DNA from: Pseudoxanthomonas sacheonensis
Lineage (GTDB): Bacteria > Pseudomonadota > Gammaproteobacteria > Xanthomonadales > Xanthomonadaceae
NCBI RefSeq assembly: GCF_010093305.1
Contig: NZ_PDWS01000012.1
Span: forward strand, 62,001-126,000
Direction of reading: 5' to 3'
Length of the DNA stretch: 64,000 nt
The notes below the pieces were generated by a model. That model was not told the origin of the DNA. It saw nothing but the letters and a program-made list of their open reading frames with translations, and ran no database searches. The position numbers and the translations under genes were made by a program. Below, in pieces: positions 19,040 to 29,772 of this stretch. Position 1 is the first letter of the stretch. The number at the start of each line of letters is the position of its first letter.

Positions 19040-19062
19040 GTCCATCGCTCCGCGCAAGACCC

Positions 19063-19094
19063 GAAGGCCCGGCTTAGTCCGGGCCTTCGTTTTT
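19063..19094 (+). terminator. Intrinsic terminator after the first M13 gene
   Basis: A GAAGGCCCGG/CCGGGCCTTC stem with a CTTAGT loop is followed by GTTTTTG, 23 bases after the stop at 19039. It separates the two M13 genes transcriptionally. Confidence 0.85.
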
Positions 19095-19127
19095 GCGGGG
19101 GCTGTTCATGGGTGCGGCCTCGGCGCT

Positions 19128-19136
19128 TGCTAGAAT
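19128..19136 (+). promoter_or_regulatory. Extended -10 promoter for the second M13 gene
   Basis: TGCTAGAAT is an extended -10 element (TGn before TAGAAT, five of six matches) about 30 bases before the ATG at 19166. The same TGCTAGAATC string occurs before the CNNM gene at 29641. No good -35 is visible, as expected for an extended -10. Confidence 0.55.
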
Positions 19137-19165
19137 CCCGGCACTCACCGACACGGAAATCCCTG

Positions 19166-21187
19166 ATGCAGCCACTGCGCGACGCCCTCAGCAAGCCCAC
19201 CCTGCTCGCCCTTGCCCTGATCCTGGCGCTCGGCGCCAACGAGGCCCAGGCCGCCAAGAAGAAGAAAGCGCCCAGGGCGCCGGCCGTGAGCGCCGAATGC
19301 ACCGACTTCTACGCCAGCGCCAACGCGGCCTGGCTCAAGGCCAACCCGCTGCCTGCCGGGACCGCCTCGCTGACCGCGCTGGGACAGTTGATCGAACGCA
19401 GCCAGCTGCAACAGCGCCAACTGCTGGATGCCTCCATGCAGTCGCCGCAGGGCAACGTGCAGAAGCTGCTGGGCGATTTCTGGGCCAGCGGCCTGGACGA
19501 AGCGGCCGTGGAAGCCGACGGCGCCAAGCCCATCGCTCCACTGCTGGACCGCATCAACGGCATCAAGAAGTCCAAGGACGTGCCGGCGGCAATCGCCGCG
19601 CTGCATCAGATCGGCATCCCGGTGGCCTTCAACTTCAGTCCGGATGTGGATCTGAAGGCACTGGACCGCCACATCGGCTATTTCTCGCAAGGCGGTCTGG
19701 GCCTGCCCGACCCGGCCTACTACACCCGCAGCGATGCGGAGACCCGCGAACTGCTGGGCCGCTACAAGAACTACGTGAAGCAGATCCTCGCCCTGACCGG
19801 AACCAAGGCCGACAAGCTGGATGCCGAAGCCAATGCCGTGATCGACCTGGAAACGCGCATCGCGCGCGCGTCCAAGCCGCTGCAGGACCTGCGCAATCCG
19901 CTTTCCAACTACCTGCCCACGCCCACCAAGGACCTGGGCAAGCGTTACCGCAACCTGCAACTGGATGCCTTCCTCAAGGCGCAGGGCGTCAGCGATGACA
20001 CAGTATCGATGGTCAACCCGGCATTGTTCGCCGAACTCAACACCCTGGTCGGCACGCTCAAGCCCGACCAATGGAAGACCTACCTGCGCTTCCAGGTCGG
20101 CAACGCCATGGCGCCCTACCTGGCCAAGTCTTACCGGGACGCCAGCTTTGAATTCCGCGGCCGCGTGTTGAAGGGAGAGGCGGCGCCCGCGCCGCGCTGG
20201 CAGCAGGTGTTGGAGGCCATCAACACAGCCGCCGGTCCGATGCTGGGCCGCGAGTACGCCGCCCGCTATCTGCCCGCCGCCAGCAAGAGCAAGGCCGAAG
20301 CGATCGCCCAGAACGTGCGCGACGCATTGGCCCGCGGCATCGAACGCAACGCATGGATGAGCGCATCGGCCAAGACCGAAGCCAAATCCAAGATCGATAA
20401 ATTGAAGATCGAGATCGGCACCCCGCGCCGCGACCTGGACTACAGTGTGCAGCCGATGGGCCGCGGCAGCTTCGGCGGCAATATCCTCATCGCTTCGACC
20501 TGGCGCCACCGCGAAGAGATGAAGCGGATCGGCAAGGGCAACGCGGACCGCCGCTGGGACGTGCTGCCGCAGCAACCGGCACTGGCCTACGATCTGGCGC
20601 AGAACCGTCTGATCGTGACGGCGGCGGTGTTGCAGCCTCCTGTATTCGATGTGAACCGCGGCGATTCGGCGCTGTTCGGATCCTACGGCGCGCTGGTCGG
20701 GCACGAGCTCAGCCGCGGCTTCGACGTCCGTGGCCGCATGGTCGACGCCGGCGGCGAACTGCGCGACTGGTGGACGCCCGCCGACGTGACCGCGTGGAAT
20801 GCGATCGGCGCGCGCGTGGCGGCGCAGTACAACGGCTATGCGTATCCGGACGTGGCCAATGGCAAGGTCAACGGCACCCTGACCCTGGACGAGAACCTGG
20901 CGGACCTGGCCGGCGTGGAACTGGCTTGGGACGCATTCACCAACGCTCAGCTTGCGCCGAATCTGGGCGCCAAGCAGACCCTGTTCCGCAGCTGGTCGGA
21001 ACTGTGGGCGCAGCGCATGTCGCCTACGGAAGCTGCGCAGCGCATCGCCACCGATGTGCATGCGCCCGGCCAATGGCGCAGCAACGGGCCGCTGGCCAAT
21101 CAGCTGGCGTTCGGCGAAACCTTCAGCTGCAAAGCCGGGCAGCCGATGCGCCGTAGCGAGGCGGAGCAGATCAAGATCTGGCGCTGA
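19166..21187 (+). CDS. M13 family paralogue with degenerate zinc motif (predicted pseudo-peptidase)
   Basis: A 673-residue protein with signal peptide (TLLALALILALGANEAQA) and full-length similarity in layout to the M13 protein upstream (GGLGLPDPAYYTRSD; DVHAP…R near the C-terminus). The zinc motif is HELSR (513-517) instead of HExxH, so the second histidine ligand is arginine; the substrate motif NAYYNP is LAYDLA, and ENxADxGG is ENLADLAG (E576, D580 kept). Peptidase activity is therefore doubtful. Being intact and full length, it is probably a maintained binding or chaperone-like paralogue (inference). Confidence 0.88.
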   Translation: MQPLRDALSKPTLLALALILALGANEAQAAKKKKAPRAPAVSAECTDFYASANAAWLKANPLPAGTASLTALGQLIERSQLQQRQLLDASMQSPQGNVQKLLGDFWASGLDEAAVEADGAKPIAPLLDRINGIKKSKDVPAAIAALHQIGIPVAFNFSPDVDLKALDRHIGYFSQGGLGLPDPAYYTRSDAETRELLGRYKNYVKQILALTGTKADKLDAEANAVIDLETRIARASKPLQDLRNPLSNYLPTPTKDLGKRYRNLQLDAFLKAQGVSDDTVSMVNPALFAELNTLVGTLKPDQWKTYLRFQVGNAMAPYLAKSYRDASFEFRGRVLKGEAAPAPRWQQVLEAINTAAGPMLGREYAARYLPAASKSKAEAIAQNVRDALARGIERNAWMSASAKTEAKSKIDKLKIEIGTPRRDLDYSVQPMGRGSFGGNILIASTWRHREEMKRIGKGNADRRWDVLPQQPALAYDLAQNRLIVTAAVLQPPVFDVNRGDSALFGSYGALVGHELSRGFDVRGRMVDAGGELRDWWTPADVTAWNAIGARVAAQYNGYAYPDVANGKVNGTLTLDENLADLAGVELAWDAFTNAQLAPNLGAKQTLFRSWSELWAQRMSPTEAAQRIATDVHAPGQWRSNGPLANQLAFGETFSCKAGQPMRRSEAEQIKIWR

Positions 21188-21208: not shown

Positions 21209-21239
21209 AAAAAGGCGCGGATATCCGCGCCTTTTTTTT
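21209..21239 (+). terminator. Strong intrinsic terminator after the second M13 gene
   Basis: A fully palindromic AAGGCGCGGATATCCGCGCCTT stem (written here in one strand, 21212-21232 region) is flanked by A on the left and eight T on the right, so it can work in both directions and also serve the convergent operon ending at 21259. Confidence 0.9.
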
Positions 21240-21258: not shown

Positions 21259-22275
21259 TCATCGATCCGGGAATGCTAGATGCAATGCCGGCAGCGATTC
21301 GAGGAAGTCCTGCGCATCGAAAGCCTCGCCGGGCGCGAGGACTCCGTTCGCTTTTCCGCGTCCATCGCCGATACGCTCCATCGCCTCCACCACCAATGGC
21401 GCGGTGACCGCATAGATATCGCGTCCTAGCGCCAACGCGCGACGCGTCTGACCGCCTCGGCGCACTCTGGTTTCGACCGCGAAGGTTTGCGAGGAACGTC
21501 CATGCGCATCGGCTGGCGCTGGCGGCGGCGTGTGCGGATCGCGCAGATCCTTGAGCGGAGCCAGGTTCATGTACGAATGCACCTCGGCGCTGCGCACATG
21601 GCGCGAGAGGGTGACGATTTCGGAAAACGGCAGCGCGATCATGTCCTGACTGCCGAATGGCTCCGGGAATGTCCATCGCCTCGATGGCGGCGGATCGGCC
21701 AGCGGCTCCAGCTTTCCGCCAGCGATCACCAGGCGGCGATAGTGGTTGCGCGCACCGGTCAAGCGGGTGCCGGCCGTGGGATGCCAACTGTCCAGTGCGA
21801 CCGCTATGTCTATGGCGTCCGCATCCGGCCAGTCGCCCAGCGCAGCGGTCGCCAGCAGATCGGCCAGGCCGCCGTAGAACGCCATCGCGGGAATGACGGT
21901 CACTGCCGCTGCCTTCGCCGCACCGGAAAAGCGATCGAAGACATCCAGAACGGCCTGTTGCTCTGCGCTCACATCCAGATAGTGGATGCGCGCACGCAAT
22001 GCGGCTTCGATCATCGGCGCCGCTGAGTCCAGGAAGGGTCCGGCGCAATTGATGACTCCCATCGCACCAGCGAGCGCTCGATCCAGCGAAGCCGGGTCTT
22101 CGACCGATGCCAGTCGTCTTTCCAGACCGGGAAACGCGTCGCCCAAAGCGGCCAGCTTGCCCGCATCGCGGCCGGACAGGACCGGAATCCAACCGCGCTC
22201 AAGCAACTCCGCGACGACGAAACGTCCGGTATGCCCATATGCGCCGTACACCACGACAGTACGATCAGTGCTCAT
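21259..22275 (-). CDS. Saccharopine-dehydrogenase-like NAD(P)-binding protein
   Basis: A 338-residue protein with an N-terminal Rossmann motif VVVYGAYGHTGRFVVAELL (residues 7-25) and the segment MGVINCAGPFLDSA, typical of the saccharopine dehydrogenase / trans-acting enoyl reductase superfamily. Substrate is unknown; a reductase acting on a lipid or polyketide-like acyl chain is one possibility. Its start overlaps the stop of the upstream hydrolase (ATGA, 22272-22275). It is the last gene of the run starting at 24324. Confidence 0.8.
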   Translation of the reverse strand: MSTDRTVVVYGAYGHTGRFVVAELLERGWIPVLSGRDAGKLAALGDAFPGLERRLASVEDPASLDRALAGAMGVINCAGPFLDSAAPMIEAALRARIHYLDVSAEQQAVLDVFDRFSGAAKAAAVTVIPAMAFYGGLADLLATAALGDWPDADAIDIAVALDSWHPTAGTRLTGARNHYRRLVIAGGKLEPLADPPPSRRWTFPEPFGSQDMIALPFSEIVTLSRHVRSAEVHSYMNLAPLKDLRDPHTPPPAPADAHGRSSQTFAVETRVRRGGQTRRALALGRDIYAVTAPLVVEAMERIGDGRGKANGVLAPGEAFDAQDFLESLPALHLAFPDR

Positions 22276-23276
22276 CGCGAACCTCTTCCGTTAGTGGGTA
22301 TCCAAGCGTTCCATAACCGTTGCGCCTCCTCGGCGATCACATCCGGACGCTCTTCCGGCCAGAATAGTTTGCTGCCTTTGAGCAACCTTACCCCGCGCGA
22401 ATGGCCGAATTCATGGTCTAGCCGCCTGGGACTCTTCGTCGAGAAAATCGTGTCGCCCATACCCCAGACGATTCGCGTCGGCACCCTGCAACGCCTGAGT
22501 TCCGGGCCGATGCCGGCCAGCGCGTTGCGTTCCAGCGCGACGGCATAGGCATGCGCGTTGTCGGTACGCTGCTGCGTACTGAGCAGCGGTCCGAAATAGG
22601 TATCGATCGCCTCATCGGTGGGTTGTGCGGGGTCGGCATAACACATGCCGCCGATGCCCTCGGACGAACGCGCCAGCGCTCTGTCGGCATGCCACCGGCC
22701 AAGCCATTCGTCCACGAACCTGCCTTCCTTGGCCAATTGAATGACCGGCAGCAGCGCAGGCGGCGGGCTGTCGTGCTCGGTGTCGCAGTTGGTCAGCAAC
22801 AGCGTGCGCACGTGGTCGCGGTGCCGCGCCGCCAGCAGTTGCGCGACCGCGCCGCCGCTGTCGTTGGCGACCACATCTACGCTGGACACCGACAACGCAT
22901 CCAGCAAGGCCAGCAGCATGTCGACCTGGGCTTCCGGCGTGCAACTCTGGCCCTCGGCTACCTGCGTGTAGCCCATGCCGAGGAAATCCGGCGCTATACA
23001 GCGCCGGTACGGCGACAGCCGATCCAGAGCTCCGCGCCACTGGAAGCCGTTGAGCGGAAATCCGTGCAGAAACAAGGCGGCCGGCCCGGAGCCGCGTTCG
23101 ACATAAGCGATGCTCCCGAACCGGGTCGCCACATAGCGTCGCGCACCATGGAAGGCGGCCGCGTCCAATGCGGCGCCTCCCGGCGCGACCTCACCGGCCA
23201 TTCGCGAGGCGCATCCGGCCAGCATGCCCGAAGCAATCATCCCGGCGGATGCGGCAAGGAAGCTTCTCCGATCCAT
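22272..23276 (-). CDS. Tat-exported lipoprotein alpha/beta hydrolase with Asp nucleophile
   Basis: A 334-residue protein starting MDRRSFLAASAGMIASGMLA, a twin-arginine (RRSFL) signal ending in an LAGC lipobox. The hydrolase fold shows the oxyanion loop LFLHGFPLNGFQW and nucleophile elbow ANDSGG, where the nucleophile is Asp, as in haloalkane dehalogenases and epoxide hydrolases. The region where the catalytic His normally lies reads GSKLFWPEERPD, with Lys instead. It is paralogous to the next gene upstream (23279-24187) and separated from it by two bases. Confidence 0.82.
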   Translation of the reverse strand: MDRRSFLAASAGMIASGMLAGCASRMAGEVAPGGAALDAAAFHGARRYVATRFGSIAYVERGSGPAALFLHGFPLNGFQWRGALDRLSPYRRCIAPDFLGMGYTQVAEGQSCTPEAQVDMLLALLDALSVSSVDVVANDSGGAVAQLLAARHRDHVRTLLLTNCDTEHDSPPPALLPVIQLAKEGRFVDEWLGRWHADRALARSSEGIGGMCYADPAQPTDEAIDTYFGPLLSTQQRTDNAHAYAVALERNALAGIGPELRRCRVPTRIVWGMGDTIFSTKSPRRLDHEFGHSRGVRLLKGSKLFWPEERPDVIAEEAQRLWNAWIPTNGRGSR

Positions 23277-23278
23277 GT

Positions 23279-24187
23279 TCAAGCTTCCCTTGCCAGTGGT
23301 TCGCGCAGATCCGTCTGCGATGCCGGATTCGCGTCCCAGTGCGCGCGCACGTCCCGATTGAAATCCAGCCAGCGCTCTTCGGGAAAGAAGATGCGCGCAC
23401 CCTCGAATTCCACCCGCCATTGCGTTCCGGGAATGGCTTGCGCCAGCCAGTGCGACCACTCCACGGGGAAGTAGATGTCGTCGGTGCCCCAGGCGATGAA
23501 GGTCGGCGCCCGTACCTGCCGCAGCTTGTCTTCGATAGCGAGCGTATGACGGCAATCGAATGCGTTGACGAAGCGCTCCAGATCGCGCGTCCGTTGCGGC
23601 GAGGCCAGGAACGGCCGCAGATAGGTTTCGATGGTGTCGTCGGACACCTGTTCCGGATGTTCGTACGCCGGGCCGAGCGCCTGTTCGGAGCGGTACACCG
23701 CCTTGTCGTCGAGCATCGCCTTGAGCGTGTCCGCAAGCCCGCCCGCCGCCACCATCTCCACGAACGGCTTGAAGGCATCGGGTGGCCAGTTGTCGTGGGC
23801 ATCGCAATTGCTCAGCACCAGGCTGCGCAGGCGCGACGGATACAGGGCCGCGAAGATCTGGCAGATGCCGCCGCCGCTGTCGTTGCCGACAAGGTCGACC
23901 TGGTCGATGCCCAGCGCGTCCAGGAACTGCGCCAGCATGTGCGCATTAGCGGTCACCGAGACGTCCTGGCCAGCATCGATCTCGGTATGGCCGTGGGCAA
24001 GCAGATCCGGCGCGATGCAGCGGCGGACATCGCTCAGTTCCGCCAGTTGGTGGCGCCACAGGTAGCCGTTGAGCAACACGCCATGTACGAACAGGGCCAC
24101 CGGACCGCGGCCCTGTTCGACATAACTGATGCGTCCGGAGGGCGTGACGGCCGACTTGCGTGCCTTGAAATAGCTCTTGCCGTCCAT
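23279..24187 (-). CDS. Cytosolic alpha/beta hydrolase with Asp nucleophile
   Basis: A 302-residue protein with the oxyanion loop LFVHGVLLNGYLW, nucleophile elbow GNDSGGG (Asp) and C-terminal GARIFFPEERWLDF. It is clearly related to the lipoprotein hydrolase downstream but has no signal peptide, so the pair would act on the two sides of the inner membrane. Haloalkane dehalogenase or epoxide hydrolase relatives are the closest functional group; the histidine of the triad is not at its usual place. Its start overlaps the stop of the Cys-rich mini-gene (TGATG). Confidence 0.82.
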   Translation of the reverse strand: MDGKSYFKARKSAVTPSGRISYVEQGRGPVALFVHGVLLNGYLWRHQLAELSDVRRCIAPDLLAHGHTEIDAGQDVSVTANAHMLAQFLDALGIDQVDLVGNDSGGGICQIFAALYPSRLRSLVLSNCDAHDNWPPDAFKPFVEMVAAGGLADTLKAMLDDKAVYRSEQALGPAYEHPEQVSDDTIETYLRPFLASPQRTRDLERFVNAFDCRHTLAIEDKLRQVRAPTFIAWGTDDIYFPVEWSHWLAQAIPGTQWRVEFEGARIFFPEERWLDFNRDVRAHWDANPASQTDLREPLAREA

Positions 24188-24324
24188 CACTCCGGCACTC
24201 CGGCGTCGCGCAGCTTCTCGGCGCATTCCTCGCAGCACACCTCGACGGCGCGGCCGCCGATGGTGACGGTGATGGCATTCTCGTCCAGCTCGCAATCGCA
24301 AGCAGCACAGGTTTTCTCGCTCAT
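24187..24324 (-). CDS. 45-residue Cys-rich putative metal-binding protein
   Basis: MSEKTCAACDCELDENAITV begins the product, followed by a second cluster VCCEECAEKL. CxxCxC plus CCxxC is the layout of a small zinc-ribbon or TRASH-like metal-binding module. The start has a strong GGAGAG. It is the first gene of the AraC-adjacent run and overlaps the next gene by one base. A metallochaperone or regulatory role is possible but not shown. Confidence 0.75.
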   Translation of the reverse strand: MSEKTCAACDCELDENAITVTIGGRAVEVCCEECAEKLRDAGVPE

Positions 24325-24453
24325 GACACTCTCCAATGCACGCCCGCCAATCGGGCATGCGTAGGAGACCATCGGGGCGCAAAGCGGGCTGTCGAAATCT
24401 TTAGCTGTTTACCGGCGGCAGCGGATTCGCCGATCCGTCGGCCAACGGGGCGC

Positions 24454-29562: not shown

Positions 29563-29640
29563 TCTGTGGCGGTCCAACAGCGCCGGGACGGTGCGATGCA
29601 ACCCGGTGATGGGCCGTTACCGCAGCCACCTGGGCGGGTT

Positions 29641-29649
29641 TGCTAGAAT
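29641..29649 (+). promoter_or_regulatory. Extended -10 promoter for the CNNM gene
   Basis: TGCTAGAAT (extended -10) matches the element before the second M13 gene. Transcription would start near 29656, leaving a 5' leader of roughly 110 bases that contains the small frame at 29674-29772. Confidence 0.5.
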
Positions 29650-29673
29650 CCGCACCGCGCCAAGGCGCACTTT

Positions 29674-29772
29674 ATGGAAGACGACCCTACCTCCCCCTAC
29701 CCCGCCCGCCGCTCGCCCGCGATGCGTGGTCCCGCAGAAGCCCGCCCTGGCGAGGGTCGCCCGCGTGCTTGA
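29674..29772 (+). CDS. Possible 32-codon leader peptide overlapping the CNNM start
   Basis: ATG-initiated frame MEDDPTSPYPARRSPAMRGP…, Pro/Arg-rich, stopping at TGA 29770-29772 just inside the next gene whose GTG is at 29765. The eight-base overlap would allow translational coupling. Alternatively it is a frameshifted N-terminal extension or chance. No ribosome site is evident. Confidence 0.25.
   Translation: MEDDPTSPYPARRSPAMRGPAEARPGEGRPRA

Follow-up and report, generated by a model that had tools for sequence, protein, structure and literature searches.

A maintained M13 pseudopeptidase, predicted from sequence, beside an intact M13 peptidase gene in Pseudoxanthomonas sacheonensis

Pseudopeptidases of family M13 are already known in insects, and a survey of the family reports probable inactive members in Drosophila (excerpts of PMC2259306). 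A close parallel is described in the available excerpts on Drosophila Nepl15, a protein with arginine at two zinc-ligand places, whose knockout showed that it acts in the storage of lipid and glycogen (PMC7822871). Drosophila Gone early is another M13 non-peptidase homologue, and its function needs no cleavage; it is transmembrane and lacks both HExxH and ExxA/GD (excerpts of PMC4242634 and PMC11266112). In a different peptidase family, MPP and the bacterial M16B proteins combine an inactive with an active paralogue, encoded side by side in bacteria, and a two-gene operon has been reported to encode M16B peptidases that resemble MPP (excerpts of PMC11266112). In the open-licence literature of PubMed Central, the listed titles, abstracts and excerpts describe no bacterial M13 pseudopeptidase and contain nothing on a gene of the type treated here in Xanthomonas, Stenotrophomonas or Lysobacter.

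The window analyzed in this study is a stretch of 64,000 nucleotides of Pseudoxanthomonas sacheonensis. The gene of protein P0002 lies at 19166..21187 (+) with an open frame of 673 codons, intact as an earlier note on this DNA had stated. P0002 is a full-length M13 (neprilysin/PepO) homologue and adjoins an intact M13 peptidase, P0001 (16934..19039, +), from which it is separated by 126 bases. Both proteins pass the Pfam cut-offs for PF05649 and PF01431 (32 and 24.5 bits), with 316 and 152 bits for P0002 and 392 and 233 bits for P0001. They share 35% identity over 637 columns, and no other protein of the assembly (4.04 Mb, 44 contigs) matches PF01431. P0001 has the features of an active-type enzyme, namely HEMTH (residues 539-543, where the earlier note had placed it), GENIADLGG and VNAYYNP, along with a lipobox-like LAAC near the N terminus that was read by eye. 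Among the best 80 of 118 relatives, the closest named one is Pseudoxanthomonas sp. CF125 (99%). The AlphaFold2 model of P0002 has a mean pLDDT of 90.5, and its top PDB match is 9eyg (TfPepO; Z 42.1, rmsd 3.1, 631 residues), followed by full-length matches to neprilysin, PepO, ECE-1 and Zmp1. The 15 best PDB rows have Z values of 26-42, after which Z falls to 6.3; all of them are M13 peptidases except 6row, an M13-related subunit of a Haemonchus complex. By sequence and by predicted fold, P0002 is thus an M13 homologue. Peptidases of the PepO, Zmp1 and PepS type match it over the full length, both in sequence and in the modelled fold (9eyg, 3zuk, 9fma; Z 36-42), but in PepS and related enzymes HExxH, ENxxD and VNAxx are intact (excerpts of PMC4701951), whereas the clade of P0002 has lost the VNA in 108 of 108 members and mostly a zinc ligand as well.

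The HExxH motif of P0002 reads HELSR (residues 513-517; 20702..20716, +), as previously noted, with Arg517 in place of the second zinc ligand. Three residues further on, Asp520 (20723..20725, +) is the counterpart of PepS Asp538, which is thought to hold the second-ligand histidine (excerpts of PMC4701951), and it is found in 36/36 non-redundant clade members with Arg517. The substrate-strand motif VNAYYNPxxN is replaced by PALAYDLAQN (residues 471-480; 20576..20605, +). ENLAD (residues 576-580; 20891..20905, +) preserves the third ligand, Glu576, as well as Asp580. Also retained are His632 and Arg638, the counterparts of neprilysin His711 and PepS Arg660, at either end of 21059..21079 (+). 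Compared with active M13 peptidases, P0002 therefore has the third ligand and aspartate of ENxxD but neither HExxH nor the VNAxx strand (PALAY); it retains Glu514, Glu576, Asp580, His632 and Arg638 and has lost one ligand and the substrate strand.

Two further claims of the earlier note stand in part. It had listed ENLADLAG as a broken ENxADxGG; the sequence is as given, but Glu576 and Asp580 are both present, and P0002 differs here from the GENIADLGG of P0001 only by G>D before the motif, I>L and G>A. The change from NAYYNP to LAYDLA is likewise a genuine replacement, but not random damage, being part of a motif of the clade's own (P471 in 107/108 members, Y475 in 106/108, D476 in 100/108 and N480 in 106/108). 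In PepS, the mutants E532A, E592D, D538N, D596A and R660K are inactive and H654A has little activity, so that small changes suffice to kill M13 activity; a homology model and these mutants suggest a salt bridge between Asp596 and Arg660 (excerpts of PMC4701951). By analogy, a counterpart bridge between Asp580 and Arg638 may have been kept in the clade for shape.

An M13 match was found in 38/38 genomes of the genus. According to the match table, 36 of the 38 encode a full-length P0002 orthologue at >=66% identity, while genome G014 has only a fragment, located at the end of a contig, and the search of the 38 genomes found no orthologue in G020. Conservation of the altered motif, which had been proposed as a check, was indeed found: arginine occupies position 517 in 35 of the 36 full-length orthologues, and the first histidine is present in 34, with L032 and L238 having lost it besides the second. 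The sole exception is L239 (G008), which has HELNH but carries Asp instead of the third ligand and Gln in place of His632. The earlier note had held that HExxH in close relatives would speak against its reading; this occurs, weakly, in that single orthologue, whose site is otherwise altered.

Synonymous and nonsynonymous changes were compared by simple counting (Nei-Gojobori). P0002 and its CF125 orthologue differ by 9 nonsynonymous and 85 synonymous changes (dN 0.0059, dS 0.194, dN/dS 0.030), while the sibling P0001 and its nearest relative give 0.066 (dN 0.0084, dS 0.1265). More distant pairs within the genus range over 0.15-0.27 for four P0002-type comparisons vs 0.17-0.32 for five sibling orthologues, and over all pairs with dS <1 and 88-99.5% identity, 156 clade pairs have a median of 0.11 and 20 active pairs one of 0.16. 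A seventh sibling-type row, with a dN/dS of 0.56, is another M13 paralogue. These ratios show strong purifying selection on P0002, in line with the earlier claim that the gene has not decayed.

The broken zinc motif could in principle reflect a sequencing error, a local mutation or a decaying gene, and a family gene split over two frames (L186, genome G047) shows that loss may happen; no orthologue was found in G020. We nevertheless consider this explanation extremely improbable. Sequencing error and local mutation are ruled out by Arg517 in 35/36 genus orthologues and decay by the dN/dS of 0.03; in addition, the open frames of the relatives are full-length and a promoter-like element ahead of the gene is conserved (see below).

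In the family, 296 genomes were searched, 253 of which have a best match below 1e-140 (counted from the printed table), two of these being transitional (G067, G071); the remaining 43 genomes include the divergent clade members L184, L187 and L229 and the split gene L186. A FastTree tree of 186 tips holds 108 clade members, 74 active relatives and four tips in neither group. For IQ-TREE, 98 tips were retained out of 206 distinct proteins (116 matching P0002 better and 90 matching P0001 better) after repeats and proteins with <560 aligned residues had been dropped. Outgroups were 9 of the loci L050-L112, a set of 63 that come mainly from Sphingomonas and Sphingopyxis. Residue counts were also made on non-redundant sets of 72 core clade members, from which nine early-branching or transitional proteins were omitted, and 57 active partners. 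All 80 tips in which the strand is replaced group together as one clade (SH-aLRT 99.7, ultrafast bootstrap 74); support is only moderate for the clade core (93/84) and for the P0002 subclade (95.6/84), in which 30 of 32 tips carry Arg517.

Loss of catalytic residues recurs across this clade. The complete set of His513, Glu514, His517, Glu576, Asp580, His632 and Arg638 is present in 16/108 clade members vs 74/74 active relatives, or, on the non-redundant sets, in 15/72 core members vs 57/57 active partners. The Asn and Ala of the substrate strand are found in none of the 108 members, and none of the 72 core proteins combines the complete catalytic set with the substrate-motif Asn. On the 83-tip part of this tree, the minimum number of losses under Dollo parsimony, which assumes an intact ancestor and no regain and depends on weak inner nodes, is 15 for His513, 8 for Glu514, 11 for His517, 17 for Glu576 and 19 for His632, and zero for both Asp580 and Arg638. 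The corresponding Fitch changes are 15, 7, 8, 17, 17, 0 and 0; the Fitch root is undecided for His513, His517 and His632 and is without Glu514, so the common ancestor of the clade may already have lost some of these residues. Asp580 and Arg638 are invariant (Arg638 in 83/83 tips), while His632 has been lost many times. Of 146 sites fixed in the active partners, the core clade keeps 55% on average, and its retention of individual residues is 50% for His517, 57% for His632, 62% for Glu576, 78% for His513, 90% for Glu514 and 100% for Asp580 and Arg638. Alignment of the two groups thus shows that the zinc-site residues enjoy no special protection in the clade.

Since P0002 itself keeps Glu514, Glu576, Asp580, His632 and Arg638, it might still be an enzyme, with Arg517 and the PALAYD strand forming an altered site for another metal, another chemistry or weak peptidase activity. 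The three ligands and the catalytic Glu are also complete in 19/72 core proteins, all from other genera (vs 57/57 active partners), and these might be active. For P0002, however, we regard an enzymatic role as quite improbable: members of its subclade read NQLTR, TQLSR or RELTR, with the first His and the Glu subject to loss as well, so the remaining active-site residues are not conserved as a unit; the substrate-strand Asn and Ala are gone from 108/108 clade members; and milder single changes abolish the activity of PepS (excerpts of PMC4701951). It is likely that P0002 neither binds a catalytic zinc nor cleaves peptides.

Two transitional proteins branch next to the clade and have an NAYYDP strand, namely that of G067 (L188:10958-13447), with HELMH and ENIAD, and that of G071 (L189:3783-5795), with HELMR and SNIAD. 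These neighbours suggest a single rewriting of the strand at the base of the clade, with ligand loss scattered. Ligand loss can also precede the strand change, as in G071, and several early-branching members already lack ligands (QQLTH, NQMAH, HQLHN). The positions of G067, G071 and L185 in the tree are not firm. The last of these (L185:5458-7503 (-), G056) lies outside the clade and is a degenerate M13 protein with ARGLM for HExxH, LQVSY in the strand and DTRAP for DxHAP, which probably represents an independent loss. Three very divergent clade members (L184:5740-7653, L187:11205-13109 and L229:4106-6265) have HELAK, HELAK and HELAH, respectively, other strand motifs and long branches; for two of the three no active gene was seen in the upstream stretch read, and L187 has one 7.3 kb away. 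At L186:5975-7697 (G047), a clade gene is split over two frames beside an active M13 gene and is either damaged or misassembled.

The clade of P0002 was seen in one bacterial family only, as far as the genomes of the order that were searched can tell. A search of 200 genomes of the order (cut-off 1e-125, at least ten other families) gave nothing from another family above 424 bits or 36% identity among the listed genomes, a cut-off at which very divergent members (255-366 bits inside the family) would be missed. Without this cut-off, 16 outside genomes (14 from ten other families and the two best outside genomes) gave 19 M13 matches in 12 genomes; HExxH and the third Glu are present in 19/19, and all 18 that cover the substrate strand show NA there. 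Among the best 80 of 118 relatives from named genomes, 16 are close members and the others have <=33% identity. Nearly all of the 16 are from Pseudoxanthomonas or Lysobacter, with L043 named as Lysobacteraceae and L044 as Pseudomonadota.

The clade has also acquired constraints of its own. We found 83 of the 673 positions to be newly constrained, that is, >=95% constant in the 72 core members but without that residue being constant (80%) in the 57 active partners. They are clustered more tightly than in any of 2000 random placements (0/2000), with 30 of the 83 in residues 101-190 (19466..19735, +) and 26 in residues 416-485 (20411..20620, +), a stretch leading into and spanning the substrate strand. 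The clade is as diverse as the active group (mean identity 0.62 and 0.63, respectively). By this comparison of alignments, constraint has shifted to the stretches 101-190 and 416-485, and since the second block runs into the replaced strand, a remodelled cleft would be the natural reading. Loss of constraint near the zinc site did not differ significantly from that at other active-fixed sites (13/24 vs 51/153, Fisher p 0.066). Co-variation of Arg517 with Asp520 was not significant either (36/36 vs 35/39, p 0.12), nor was that of Arg517 with Glu576, Glu514, His513 or His632 (p 0.08-0.36 over all five pairs).

The N terminus of P0002 resembles a signal peptide without lipobox (19166..19252, +; read by eye) and is followed by a basic tail rich in Lys, Ala and Pro ahead of the domain (19253..19297, +; from the charge count). 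A lipobox is present in 3/115 clade-type proteins, one transitional protein included, vs 66/89 active-type proteins, a set that includes outgroups and cut frames. For the 16 residues before the domain, the mean charge is +3.9 over 72 clade members vs -1.3 over 57 active partners, and a charge of >=+2 is found in 65/72 and 0/57, respectively. From these N-terminal signals, P0002 is predicted to be secreted and its sibling P0001 to be a membrane-anchored lipoprotein. Nepl15 resembles P0002 in these respects, being probably secreted rather than membrane-bound and conserved genus-wide, with an M13 fold by modelling, ligands replaced by Arg and the Asp partners of the ligands kept; unlike P0002, it is an animal gene from a separate expansion with two ligands and the Glu changed (excerpts of PMC7822871).

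The two M13 genes of the window are likely transcribed separately, as judged from the elements around them. An extended -10-like element, TTGCTAGAATC, precedes the P0002 gene at 19127..19137 (+), and its core TGCTAGAAT is found directly upstream of the gene in 32/36 genus orthologues, being absent in L005, L032, L237 and L239. A scan with the sigma-70 consensus gave 0 promoters vs 0.5 expected, and no -35 element was seen. The 11-mer TTGCTAGAATC has two copies in the whole assembly, both within the window; the other copy (29640-29650) lies 23 bases before an ATG at 29674 and may mark a promoter of this type for a different gene. Between the M13 genes, the scan found a strong terminator-like stem-loop of 11 pairs with a T tail (19062..19089, +), which is present in 4/4 aligned sequences (the window and the three closest species) and not visible in the 126 bases of the more distant genus members L035, L036, L038 and L047. 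This stem, together with the promoter-like element of P0002, makes separate transcription likely here. Past the gene there is a palindrome followed by a T run (21210..21239, +), read by eye and absent from the scan list. The earlier note had credited P0002 with its own promoter and terminators; the promoter is well supported by the conserved TGCTAGAAT (32/36) despite the empty sigma-70 scan, but the terminator by the closest species only. Downstream, the span 22272-24382 (-) contains two adjoining frames that resemble tandem paralogues (similar stretches, by eye), which we take to be alpha/beta-hydrolase-like.

Gene order was read in 53 regions that were hand-picked, about one per genus plus extras, the split L186 gene being counted once. 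In 38/53 regions, an active M13 gene is encoded on the same strand <=1 kb upstream; in 8 it is farther away, and in 7/53 no active M13 gene was found in the 4.4-5.9 kb read upstream. Blast clustering of neighbouring frames gave no useful shared neighbourhood beyond the M13 pair, shadow frames swamping the GC-rich DNA. The adjacent pair recalls MPP and the bacterial M16B proteins, and P0002 might be a regulatory subunit that pairs with, inhibits or feeds the upstream active M13 lipoprotein; the similar selection on both genes, the export-signal-like N termini of both proteins (by eye) and the two-gene operon reported for M16B (excerpts of PMC11266112) would fit. We consider it rather unlikely, however, because of the 7/53 regions without an active gene nearby, the promoter-like element of P0002 in the genus and the terminator-like stem between the pair in the closest species. 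An origin by tandem duplication would equally give adjacency, and the 53 regions are not a random draw. MPP and M16B, moreover, belong to another peptidase family, and a complex of P0001 with P0002 is hypothetical. Regulation of the active sibling by P0002 is possible, and we rank it second, behind capture of peptides by a remodelled chamber.

The description as a maintained pseudo-peptidase, with which the earlier note had closed, is well supported by Arg517 in 35/36 orthologues, 9 vs 85 differences and repeated ligand loss across the clade. We conclude that P0002 is a pseudopeptidase by its sequence, with catalytic residues missing and the gene under selection, and that its function is presumably non-catalytic. 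Most relatives keep a protein of this type, so it is very probably useful without cleavage, for example as a binder of peptides or of a partner protein. Taken together, the evidence indicates that the shared function of the clade needs no zinc. That P0002 is a maintained, secreted, zinc-independent M13 pseudopeptidase that binds a peptide or protein is the best explanation overall, to which we give a probability of about 0.55; that it acts as a binding protein in the periplasm or outside the cell has roughly even odds.

In such a protein, the M13 chamber with its remodelled rim would hold a peptide or protein ligand. The guanidinium group of Arg517, held by Asp520, would substitute for the charge of the metal, and Asp580 and Arg638 would keep the chamber wall in shape. 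The ligand would probably come from the pool that also supplies the substrates of the membrane-anchored sibling, a step suggested by kinship and gene order, and P0002 would act by capturing or presenting peptides, while the basic tail might tie it to an acidic surface. On a wider scale, an M13 lineage across the family may have become a zinc-independent, receptor-like subunit after the strand was rewritten and then lost its metal site repeatedly and independently, forming a two-part system with the adjacent active lipoprotein (the first such M13 pair), and the transitional NAYYDP forms (G067 with HELMH, G071 with HELMR) survive; this scenario is speculative and, in our view, unlikely.

P0002 is a predicted bacterial M13 pseudopeptidase with dozens of orthologues in graded loss of the active site, with transitional relatives and with an active sibling next to it. 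The case also calls for caution in annotation, as a family-level M13 match is no proof of a metallopeptidase. In this family, the steps from enzyme to pseudoenzyme can be traced, from a strand replaced clade-wide to zinc ligands lost here and there, and genetics in easily handled bacteria could test what the M13 fold does without zinc.
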